Below the pieces are notes generated by a model, which saw only the letters and a program-made list of their open reading frames with translations, was not told the origin of the DNA and searched no databases. The translations under genes and the position numbers were made by a program. From the NCBI GenBank assembly GCA_030831705.1, contig JAURKO010000240.1, forward strand, positions 1 through 40,929: a stretch of 40,929 bases of DNA. The letters run 5' to 3'. Each line of letters opens with the position of its first letter. Within the stretch, counting starts at the first letter, position 1. Source of the DNA: Daejeonella sp. Its GTDB lineage: Bacteria > Bacteroidota > Bacteroidia > Sphingobacteriales > Sphingobacteriaceae. Below are positions 10,411 to 13,630 of this stretch, one piece after another.

Positions 10411-11253
10411 ATGGAAAAAAGTATAAACAGACAGACCCGTAGAAGTTTTATTCAGCAGATTTCTTTTGCATCGGCTTTATTGCTAAGTGGTAGAATTACC
10501 GATCTTTCTGCAGCGGAAGTTTATGACTTAAAAGCAAAAGTTAAACTGAGATTCGTACTAGCATCCGACTTTCATTATGGGCAGCCCAACACGGCATTCG
10601 ACGAGATGACGGATAAAGTGATTAATCAGATTAATTTGTTTAATAAGAGTAATCGAATTGATTTTTGCGTACTCAATGGTGACATCATTCATAATGAAGA
10701 GAACCTTTTACCATTAGTCAAGAAAAAAACCGATAACCTGCAGGTGCCTTATTATGTTGTTCGGGGAAACCATGATATGGTGACTGATGAATTATGGAAT
10801 GAGGTGTGGAAAATGCCATTGAATCATAGTTTTGAAGCTAAAGGCTCGGCATTCATACTGGCAGATACGTCAAATGTGCAGGGTACATATGTTTCACCAG
10901 ATTTACAATGGTTAAAAGAGAGGCTTGAACAATATAAAAGTAAAAAGAATGTATTTCTAGTGCTGCATATTCCGCAGGCTAAATGGACTGAGCATGCGAT
11001 TGATACCCCTGATTTTTTTGAATTAATTCATAAGTATCCAAATGTCAGAGCAGGATTTCATGGTCATGTACATGATCAGGATGGGGTGTTCATGGCGAGA
11101 AATATCCCTTTCTTATTTGATTCACATGTTGGAGGAAGTTGGGGAACACCCTACAGAGGATTTAGAGTAGTGGAGTTATTGAATGATGGTACTTTGGTTA
11201 CCTACATGATGAACCCTACTGAAAAACTTACTGAGCTCAAATATATGGCATAA
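10411..11253 (+). CDS. Tat-exported calcineurin-like metallophosphoesterase
   Basis: This 280-residue protein has an N-terminal Tat signal (TRRSFIQQISFASALLLSG). The calcineurin-like phosphoesterase motifs then appear in order: ASDFHYG (first Asp/His pair), LNGDIIHN, VRGNHDM, LVLHIPQ and FHGHVHD. These are the two-metal ligands of the family. It should hydrolyse phosphomonoesters or phosphodiesters outside the cytoplasm; the substrate is unknown. It is separated from the planctomycete-type block by 93 bases holding Pho-box-like repeats, so it may be a separate, phosphate-responsive unit. No Shine-Dalgarno sequence was seen. Its 3' end lies next to the candidate structured RNA on the other strand. 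Confidence 0.92.
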   Translation: MEKSINRQTRRSFIQQISFASALLLSGRITDLSAAEVYDLKAKVKLRFVLASDFHYGQPNTAFDEMTDKVINQINLFNKSNRIDFCVLNGDIIHNEENLLPLVKKKTDNLQVPYYVVRGNHDMVTDELWNEVWKMPLNHSFEAKGSAFILADTSNVQGTYVSPDLQWLKERLEQYKSKKNVFLVLHIPQAKWTEHAIDTPDFFELIHKYPNVRAGFHGHVHDQDGVFMARNIPFLFDSHVGGSWGTPYRGFRVVELLNDGTLVTYMMNPTEKLTELKYMA

Positions 11254-11254
11254 A

Positions 11255-11456
11255 ATAATTCACCTGGGGTTAACGGCCTCAGATGGATAATACGGCTGGA
11301 CGGGGCTGCCCATCCCAATGAAAAACTACACCTAGTAAAATAAACCTTACCGTAGGAGGTAGCTTCCGGCTATTGATAATTTGATCTATATCGCGATTTC
11401 TTACCGGAACTAACCCGGAGGAAAGGACTGAACTAACCTATAAAACGCAGGTATTG
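11255..11456 (-). ncRNA. Candidate structured non-coding RNA (unknown class)
   Basis: This gene-free, locally GC-richer stretch folds into a closed junction. The composite closing stem pairs 11262-11266 with 11448-11452, 11268-11272 with 11434-11438, and 11278-11282 with 11428-11432. Inside are three arms: 11298-11304 with 11309-11315 (tetraloop), a 12-bp broken helix between 11326-11338 and 11347-11362, and TTCCGG/CCGGAA at 11364-11369 and 11404-11409. On the minus strand two positions become G-U pairs (11301/11312 and 11278/11432) that would be C-A mismatches on the plus strand, so minus is preferred. A TATATTTTGG sequence just upstream and a U-rich stretch after the closing stem fit a short independent transcript. 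I do not recognise the family: no RNase P, tmRNA, SRP or cobalamin riboswitch core was found. Confidence 0.5.
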
Positions 11457-11460
11457 ATTT

Positions 11461-11470
11461 CCAAAATATA
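11461..11470 (-). promoter_or_regulatory. Possible -7 element for the structured RNA
   Basis: On the minus strand the sequence reads TATATTTTGG, one base longer in its spacer than the Bacteroidota consensus TAnnTTTG. It lies about 10-15 bases before the closing stem of the candidate RNA. No clear -33 TTTG was seen, so support is weak. Confidence 0.25.
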
Positions 11471-11542
11471 ATATTGTTATTGAAAAGCTTTATCTGGATA
11501 AATTAATGACATTATTTTACCGTTCTTAAAGTGAAACTCAGG

Positions 11543-13630
11543 TTATAAAGTAAGTTTAATACCACCAAAGAAATTTCGCCTTGACGCAGCATTGAAGAAT
11601 CTACCTCCAAATGCATTAATATCATTTCCAAGGCTGTAGGTTTCATTTAAGAGGTTGTCAATACCTACATAAAATTCAAGAACTGGTTTTCCAGGTTTTG
11701 AACCTCTCCAGCCTGCCTTAAAATGTACAAGGTCAAAACTTTCGGCATACACACTATTGGCATCATTTAGAGGAATTTTTGAGGTATAATTGTGTTGAAC
11801 GAACAAGAAAAAGTTCTTTTGAAACCTAAAATCCAATCCGCTAACTACCACACTTCTAGGAGTACCTGTTAAGCGGTTCCCTGAAAAGTTAGTGCGGCCA
11901 TTTTGGTAATCCCTGAAAAAATATCTGCTTAGAGTAAAGCTGTTTTGAATTTGAAGTCCGCTTAAAATTCCTTTTGAACCCGGCTCGATAAGCCAATAAC
12001 TGCTTTGCGTTTCTAGTCCGGTTTGTCTGGTTCCACCGGCATTTAAATAAAATTCGGTGTCATCTGCGTTTACACGACGAACAATTGCATTTTGAAGACG
12101 GTATTGAAAAATAGAGGCATCCATCCAAAGACGATCATTGTTATTTCGTAAACGGAATCCAGCTTCATAGTTCCATCCAGTTTCAGATTCTAGCGTGTTA
12201 TTGATCTTATTGTCAGAAGCCCTTACTTCGGCAATGGTAGGAGGAGAATAACCTCTGCTAATGGAAGAACGTAGTGCAAGAAGATCTGAAATCTGGTACG
12301 ATAGAGCGAATCGTGGCATAAGTTCAGGATCGAAATTACGTTCAAAGCTTGAAGTATTTGCACTGAAATCTTTAGAAAACTGATATTTGTAATAGTTTAG
12401 ACTGGCGGCAACTTCTGCCGTAAGTTTTTCTCCGATATTTGCAGAAAATCGCGTAAAGTAGAAAAATTGACGTGAAAGGATATCGTCCTGAGCCTGCAAG
12501 GTGCCACGGACTCCTCTGAGATTATTGTAATTGGCAATATCAGCGCTTGTACTCTGCAATTCAAGTCCGGCATTCCATTTCCAGTCTACCGCATTTTCTT
12601 TATTGCCTGATAATTCAAGATAAGTTCTGATTCCACCTGTATATTCATCACGAATCTCATAATTGGTAATGAAGGGGTTCATGTAATCCGTCTTAGAACC
12701 ATAAACCGCAAAAACATGCCTTAAGTTACCTGCAATCTTTGCATCGTTAACAACACCCCCATATAATGTTTCATTTTCAATTCGTGCTTTTTGTGCAACC
12801 GGGCCGGCTACCGTAAGAGTGGAAGGCCTGGCAGCCTGTGGATTTGCAGTATATTGAGCCAAAGTCAAACCGCCTGGTGTATTATATTTCAGGTCGGAGT
12901 AAAAGGCAAGTACCCGAAGCTGGCTCTCTTTGGCATAATTCACTCGGTACATGAGCTGCGCATAATGGCGGCTCATGGCACTATGTTCCCGGTAACCATC
13001 CGATCTCTGATATGAATGGTTAATGTTCAGATATTGATTTTTGAACTTTTTTTGAACGGCTAACTTTTCATGAAACAATCCATAAGAACCGCTACTTATA
13101 CCTGCCGAAGCCCAGGTACTGTCGGCATTTTTGTCGATAGGGTTTATCAGTACAACTCCACCGGAGTTTGCCCCAAACAGACTGCCATCTGGTCCTTTCA
13201 GAACCTCAATATTATTTATACTATTTACATCTATTAAGTTCAAATAGGTATTTCCTCCTGCATCTGTTAATGGTAATTCATCCAGATACATCTTTACATT
13301 CCTAACTCCAAAAGGTGATCTGAGCGAGCTTCCCCGAATAGAAAGACGGTAACTTCCGGGAGATCTTTCTTCCATCCTGATTCCAGGTACAGCATTAAGC
13401 GCAGGTAACATGGTGATTCCGGGTTGATCTCTCAATTGTTTGTTACTAATCAAACTTACAGAAGAAGGAACTTTTAATATTGGTTGTTCTGATAGGTATG
13501 CTCTGATAACGATTTCTTTAACTTTCTGAACCGAATCTACTTTACCCTGAGCAAAGCCATCACTCACTATTAATGAGAGTAATAAACATAATTTGATTCT
13601 AATGCTGTTAAAGTTTCTGTTAATTTCCAT
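11543..13630 (-). CDS. TonB-dependent outer membrane receptor
   Basis: This 695-residue protein starts with a Sec signal peptide (hydrophobic core LCLLLSLIVSDGFA, residues 14-27). A plug domain follows, with VPSSVSLISNKQL, PGIRMEERSPGSYRLSIRG and VLKGPDGSLFGANSGGVVLI. The remaining ~450 residues are the 22-strand beta-barrel, ending in NFFGGIKLTL, a normal outer-membrane C-terminus. The segment EIVIRA near residue 39 may be the TonB box. There is no SusD-like partner and no carboxypeptidase-like N-terminal domain, so iron, siderophore or another small ligand is more likely than a glycan, but the substrate is unknown. No cobalamin riboswitch was found in the 80 bases upstream. It is monocistronic. 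Confidence 0.93.
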   Translation of the reverse strand: MEINRNFNSIRIKLCLLLSLIVSDGFAQGKVDSVQKVKEIVIRAYLSEQPILKVPSSVSLISNKQLRDQPGITMLPALNAVPGIRMEERSPGSYRLSIRGSSLRSPFGVRNVKMYLDELPLTDAGGNTYLNLIDVNSINNIEVLKGPDGSLFGANSGGVVLINPIDKNADSTWASAGISSGSYGLFHEKLAVQKKFKNQYLNINHSYQRSDGYREHSAMSRHYAQLMYRVNYAKESQLRVLAFYSDLKYNTPGGLTLAQYTANPQAARPSTLTVAGPVAQKARIENETLYGGVVNDAKIAGNLRHVFAVYGSKTDYMNPFITNYEIRDEYTGGIRTYLELSGNKENAVDWKWNAGLELQSTSADIANYNNLRGVRGTLQAQDDILSRQFFYFTRFSANIGEKLTAEVAASLNYYKYQFSKDFSANTSSFERNFDPELMPRFALSYQISDLLALRSSISRGYSPPTIAEVRASDNKINNTLESETGWNYEAGFRLRNNNDRLWMDASIFQYRLQNAIVRRVNADDTEFYLNAGGTRQTGLETQSSYWLIEPGSKGILSGLQIQNSFTLSRYFFRDYQNGRTNFSGNRLTGTPRSVVVSGLDFRFQKNFFLFVQHNYTSKIPLNDANSVYAESFDLVHFKAGWRGSKPGKPVLEFYVGIDNLLNETYSLGNDINAFGGRFFNAASRRNFFGGIKLTL

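Follow-up and report, generated by a model that had tools for sequence, protein, structure and literature searches.

The Flavo-1 RNA motif (Rfam RF01705; Weinberg et al. 2010, PMC2864571) is a family widespread in Bacteroidota that has no known role and has so far been classed as a likely RNA that is not cis-regulatory and not a switch. In the transcriptome of F. psychrophilum, its matches show no distinction between sense and antisense orientation relative to transcripts, and many lie outside any (PMC9723704), a pattern more in keeping with a dispersed mobile repeat than with a dedicated small RNA. Several mobile repeats are of interest for comparison. IS982 elements have ends that usually begin with AC (PMC7335449), and an IS982-derived MITE of about 240 bp, MITECca01, is known in Cardinium, where it derives from its parental IS and has no conserved internal structure reported (PMC9769881). 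The Correia repeat enclosed elements of Neisseria are bacterial MITEs that place foldable, possibly regulatory sequence by genes (PMC2649163), and the REP/REPIN sequences, mobilised by RAYT, are dispersed imperfect palindromes.

Our analysis of a window of 40,929 nucleotides from Daejeonella sp. (contig JAURKO010000240.1) revealed a locus at which two of these systems meet. We identify it as a degraded, non-autonomous copy of an IS982-type MITE carrying a Flavo-1-like hairpin as cargo, a joint identity that we hold with considerable confidence. The first-pass annotation of the window had drawn attention to a segment at 11255-11456, flanked by a metallophosphoesterase gene and a TonB-dependent receptor gene, and had read it as a candidate structured RNA of unknown class with four nested or adjacent helices, transcribed more likely from the minus strand. 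Its coordinates and the absence of genes between them are correct. The features of the locus are as follows.

10411-11253, plus strand: metallophosphoesterase gene, ending at 11253
11261-11285 (11261-11269 with 11277-11285), no strand assigned: terminator-like hairpin of the phosphoesterase gene, outside the element; element-free sister species also have a hairpin there
11303-11543, plus strand: right-half remnant of the IS982-type MITE, with similarity to other copies from about 11303 and its right end at 11543
11335-11346, plus strand: conserved single-stranded segment GTAAAATAAACC at the foot of the hairpin, 96% identical at window-locus orthologues
11345-11426, plus strand: Flavo-1-like hairpin, with covariation in 40 own-genome copies, 161 copies and 45 full elements
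11427-11470, no strand assigned: conserved 3' flank of the hairpin, with a promoter-like match on minus
11527-11543, minus strand: right inverted end, degraded, reading AACTCAGGT at 11535-11543 against the consensus end
11543-13630, minus strand: TonB-dependent receptor gene, ending at 11543

Two separate things occupy the segment, namely the terminator-like hairpin behind the phosphoesterase gene and the hairpin at 11345-11426, the latter being the sole structure with covariation support. The proposed four-helix composite finds no backing, the 202-nt fold being no better than that of shuffled sequences on either strand (z = -1.04 on plus and -0.55 on minus, with 24 and 52 of 200 shuffles, respectively, folding equally well). 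What had been taken for its outer closing stem, at 11261-11285, belongs to the phosphoesterase gene, and a hairpin is present at the 3' site of that gene in six genomes without the element (G010, G002, G009, G017, G004 and G001). The arm of 12 bp interrupted by one or two bases, described in the same annotation, does exist within 11345-11426: the consensus of the repeat pairs GGTAG(C)TTCCGGC with GCCGGAACTACC, for which the window copy has ACCGGAACTAACC. A search of the window against Rfam, at gathering and loose thresholds, returned chance matches only and no direct match to any family, and hence the segment is not 6S, RNase P, tmRNA or SRP RNA; the earlier remark that it resembles none of the last three holds, and the idea of a 6S-like RNA falls. 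No riboswitch model matched in the window, and neither tmRNA nor tRNA was found there.

Instead of a single RNA gene, the segment contains a copy of a transposable element that is present dozens of times, and the hairpin of this element belongs with the Flavo-1 motif. A DNA search of the own genome (G000) with the intergenic query gave at least 40 strong matches, comprising the self-match and others at 76-86% identity. A pattern for the 5' arm of the hairpin was found at 48 places in this genome, at 99 in G011, and in 11 of 20 Daejeonella genomes, while the reversed control pattern had 0 matches in the same 20. By DNA similarity among 41 genomes, the repeat occurs in this genus only; named records with the motif are MAGs of Daejeonella and other Sphingobacteriaceae, and collections of plasmid, phage and viral contigs gave no match to the repeat. 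At four loci (L128, L135, L144 and L154), the hairpin is doubled in tandem, about 143-150 bp apart, inside single insertions, and in another genome (G326, L279 1495-3183) a 294-bp unit with two inverted Flavo-1-like hairpins is repeated in tandem in 5.7 copies.

Aligned intact copies are about 455 bp long, with 17-bp inverted ends and two inverted hairpins, and the consensus element is itself an imperfect inverted repeat. R2, a model built from loci of a second genus described below, recognised the second, inverted hairpin in several intact Daejeonella elements, always within their left half (E down to 1e-11), and the intact element is therefore an inverted pair of hairpins. The inverted ends, ACCTGAGTTCGATATAA, start with AC, as do terminal inverted repeats of IS982 type, and 13 of 20 genus genomes contain the end sequence. 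With the element end set at this sequence, flanking target duplications of 6-7 bp are evident: exact 7-bp duplications flank 11 of 48 elements (shuffled mean 0.9, maximum 4), and 7-bp flanks agree within one base in 22 of the 48 (shuffled maximum 11). An ORF of at least 100 aa spans just 5 of 161 copies. The repeat is short, lacks a transposase gene, is present in many copies and has both occupied and empty sites, as is characteristic of a MITE. Retroposon-like 5' truncation was considered for the left-truncated copies and dropped, given the inverted ends and duplications of intact copies.

Candidate partner enzymes are encoded in sister genomes. In G008, a 1046-bp element with ends ACGTGAGTTCGGG(T/A)TAA codes for an IS982-family transposase (NF033520, E=1.5e-72). 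A second IS982 element, in G004, has the left end ACCTGAGTTCGATTAAT and a weaker right end, and a decayed one in the same genome (L198 2001-2900, contig C29) ends in ACGTGAGTTCGATATAA, which is the consensus left end of the MITE. Most PF01609 transposases have ends that do not match the repeat, an IS1380 transposase as partner gave no match, and the own genome, an incomplete MAG, yielded no IS982 transposase. The repeat is filed as an IS982-type MITE because IS982 transposases with similar ends exist in sister genomes, because the ends follow the AC rule, and because the Cardinium MITE provides a precedent; the transposon part of the identification is well supported, and we see little room for doubt about it. 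An IS982 transposase would move the element in trans.

The Daejeonella element shares with MITECca01 its non-autonomous nature, high copy number, IS982-like ends, mostly intergenic position and occurrence in Bacteroidota, and differs in that what it encloses is structured cargo and not IS sequence. The element resembles REP/REPIN sequences in being dispersed and extragenic and in forming imperfect palindromes, inverted pairs and tandem arrays; unlike these, it has ends, target duplications and a partner enzyme of IS982 type. A REP/RAYT system was rejected, a hairpin being nearby at just 1 of 30 Y1 (RAYT) transposase loci. In common with the Correia elements, a bacterial MITE here places foldable, possibly regulatory sequence by genes, although the ends, host and fold are different.

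The window copy lacks the left half of the element and the left inverted end, and the left boundary of the remnant is approximate (11287-11303). The element is inserted at the stop codon of the TonB receptor gene, its last base being the third base of this codon (11543-11545), which is TAA in the window and TAG at the same place in orthologues without the element, such as that of G002. The locus is occupied in G000, G008, G012, G011 and G007, and is empty in the six sister species named above, which have only a hairpin between the two genes; no element was seen in the 199 bp available from G019.

The hairpin at 11345-11426 consists of 20 pairs in steps of 4, 2, 2, 5 and 7. Its stem is interrupted by a 1x1 mismatch, a 3x3 internal loop and two one-sided bulges, its loop measures about 35 nt, and its asymmetric bulges are conserved. 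Prompted by the one-sided bulges, an integron attC site was considered and rejected by eye, the R-box motifs being in the wrong order. The single-stranded segment GTAAAATAAACC shares its last two bases with the beginning of the stem; the segment is conserved in the second genus as GTTAAATAAACC, and its minus reading is the U-rich GGTTTATTTTAC.

Applied to 45 full elements, RNAalifold recovered this hairpin as the only structure in the whole element. Among 40 own-genome copies, chosen by similarity and not by stem pattern, 96.2% of cells are paired compared with 92.4% in shuffles, both sides are changed in 25 cells compared with 10.7, and the covariation score is 0.144 compared with 0.080, none of 500 shuffles reaching any of these values. 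Two of the five measures are less extreme (pairs changed on both sides, reached by 42 of 500 shuffles, and further pair types, by 20 of 500), and all these fractions come from shuffles that ignore relatedness and are no formal probabilities. Sliding the partners destroys the pairing, and compensatory types occur at four stem pairs. When all column pairs of 161 copies are considered, a stem pair is the most strongly coupled; other strong couplings look like subfamily structure. The first-pass annotation was thus right to suspect a conserved structured element: the check that it had suggested, for homologues without paired substitutions, was run and found paired changes, leaving the structure unrefuted.

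Comparison of the same insertion between species suggests that the fold matters after the element has landed. At 27 orthologous insertion pairs with both flanks matched, identity is 94% in the 5' arm of the stem, 90% in the 3' arm and 97% in the tail GTAAAATAAA, against 77% in the loop and 70% in the element arms, and orthologues of the window locus, retrieved through the neighbour gene alone, give 92, 85, 96, 76 and 70% in the same order; these pairwise comparisons are not independent, and some loci were fetched by the 5'-arm pattern. Orthologous copies also show compensatory differences. That the stem outlasts the loop and the arms at orthologous insertions suggests that the fold has been under selection since the element landed; stems could likewise be kept alike by gene conversion between copies. 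Some stem positions are unpaired in the window-locus copies of G000 and G012. By eye, in an ambiguous alignment, G012 (L243) has GGTTAG in the 5' arm opposite CTAACC, where G000 has GGTAG opposite CTAACC, and GGTTAG is possibly a compensating insertion.

How is this hairpin related to Flavo-1? The window copy gives no match to the Flavo-1 model even at an E of 10 and does not reach the gathering score, and its Daejeonella kin lie below detection by the model, which is why we call it a divergent relative. The connection is made through intermediate sequences. R1, a covariance model built from own-genome copies, found matches in 31 genomes belonging to a second genus within the same family, with very different top stems and the plan kept, and had no match in the other sampled genera apart from its own. 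At four loci (L272, L276, L277 and L281), the Rfam model scores Flavo-1 above threshold at the same places and on the same strands as R1, and R2 and Flavo-1 coincide at many further loci. R2 marks 81 places in the own genome and from 79 to at least 150 in each of ten second-genus genomes; the Rfam model marks at least 150 Flavo-1 places in G015 and six in the own genome, the latter outside the repeat wherever this was checked. The secondary-structure plan, compared by eye with the Flavo-1 structure line, is also the same, with a bottom stem, 1x1 mismatch, 2 bp, 3x3 internal loop, 2 bp, asymmetric loop and upper stem in succession. The window hairpin is very probably a Flavo-1 relative, and this assignment is well supported. 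Unlike Flavo-1, the Daejeonella hairpins sit as inverted pairs in a MITE of about 455 bp. Two canonical Flavo-1 sequences of the own genome, at C1:2140-2216 and C104:7127-7207, are without IS982-type ends.

In G015, all 8 loci fetched by the MITE end sequence alone hold Flavo-1, and 4 of these 8 show 5-bp flanking duplications; judged by these ends, Flavo-1 proper lies inside IS982-type MITEs in this genome. In the second genus and elsewhere outside G015, IS982-type ends around Flavo-1 are mostly absent, so that hairpin and transposon are separable and more than one vehicle is involved. We tentatively suggest, giving the idea slightly less than an even chance, that Flavo-1 may largely be a mobile structured element, in which a hairpin, alone or as an inverted pair, is carried by different vehicles (IS982-type MITEs in the present case) and selection acts on its fold once it has inserted into a host genome. 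A fold inside elements with inverted ends and duplications would explain the copy number and random orientation of Flavo-1, and raises the testable question of whether it serves the transposon or the host. Transposable elements can find their way into catalogues of structured RNA, and the hairpins described here add to Flavo-1 a large divergent branch missed by the Rfam model. A literature search that covered few subscription journals, and is weak evidence in this respect, turned up no description of the repeat and none that treats Flavo-1 as mobile.

What could the fold do at these sites? Copies lie mostly behind genes, often between convergent ones, the flanking genes being convergent at 51 copies, divergent at 12, (+,+) at 30 and (-,-) at 19 by simple ORF calls. 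We propose that the MITE would be tolerated at gene ends, settling mostly behind genes and often between convergent ones, and that the hairpin may work there in the form of a folded strand: most likely RNA in the 3' ends of read-through mRNA, where it would be a stabilising or processing hairpin, and less likely single-stranded DNA. The role assigned to the fold is a guess, plausible with the chances somewhat against it.

IS982 transposases are DDE enzymes whose substrate is double-stranded ends, which speaks against a fold that acts as DNA, that is, as a single-stranded or cruciform hairpin used for mobility or for binding a host protein, with transcription irrelevant; the lack of an association with Y1 (RAYT) transposases, with one hairpin near 30 Y1 genes, does so too. 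We nevertheless consider such a role conceivable, if doubtful, in view of the very high copy number, the inverted hairpin pairs and tandem arrays, the conserved asymmetric bulges, and the frequent position of Flavo-1 matches outside transcripts (PMC9723704). The fold might instead be functionless, inherited from a source element and conserved by recent copying or gene conversion. Repeats of such a kind can convert, and broken pairs in the window-locus copies speak for this reading; we find it unlikely, as the loop and arms are more diverged than the stem at the same orthologous sites, orthologous copies differ by compensatory changes, and the top stems differ widely in sequence between genera with pairing kept.

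A decidedly unlikely alternative to a hairpin in read-through mRNA is that the MITE carries a small RNA gene on the minus strand, the strand favoured in the first-pass annotation, with a promoter TTTG-N21-TAGGTTAG at 11465-11433, a start at about 11428, the hairpin, and a U-rich end at about 11335. The promoter-like match, in the 3' flank, and the U-rich tail noted in that annotation both exist; the tail is strongly conserved, and the position of the best promoter-like match on minus, unlike that on plus, is shared by about 107 of 157 copies, although these copies are related. The motif is weak, however, in G011, the genome with the most copies by pattern count, no compact terminator was found, and Flavo-1 matches in F. 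psychrophilum are indistinctly sense and antisense to transcripts (PMC9723704). The hairpin itself also speaks for the other strand: the most variable pair (24/84) is G-U, G-C or A-U on plus and never A-C, the conserved mismatches are purine-purine on plus, the plus fold is the more stable in 36 of 40 copies, and Flavo-1 is modelled on the plus strand of the hairpin. Without the one special pair, wobbles are nearly even (18 versus 15), and we therefore only lean towards plus as the acting strand; a clear minus-strand transcript is not supported. Finally, an ordinary bidirectional terminator for the two convergent genes, suggested by their placement and the U-rich tail on minus, is very improbable, since a scan of 11230-11560 allowing loops of 3-8 found no intrinsic terminator-like site, the loop is about 35 nt long, the phosphoesterase gene already has its own hairpin, and the plus side has no U-run.

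In G010, a second short repeat of about 150-220 bp with related ends AACGTGAGTTCGATATTA (L189-L196; e.g., L192 2001-2201), inside which neither a Flavo-1 nor an R1 hairpin was found, is perhaps another MITE of the same transposase family.
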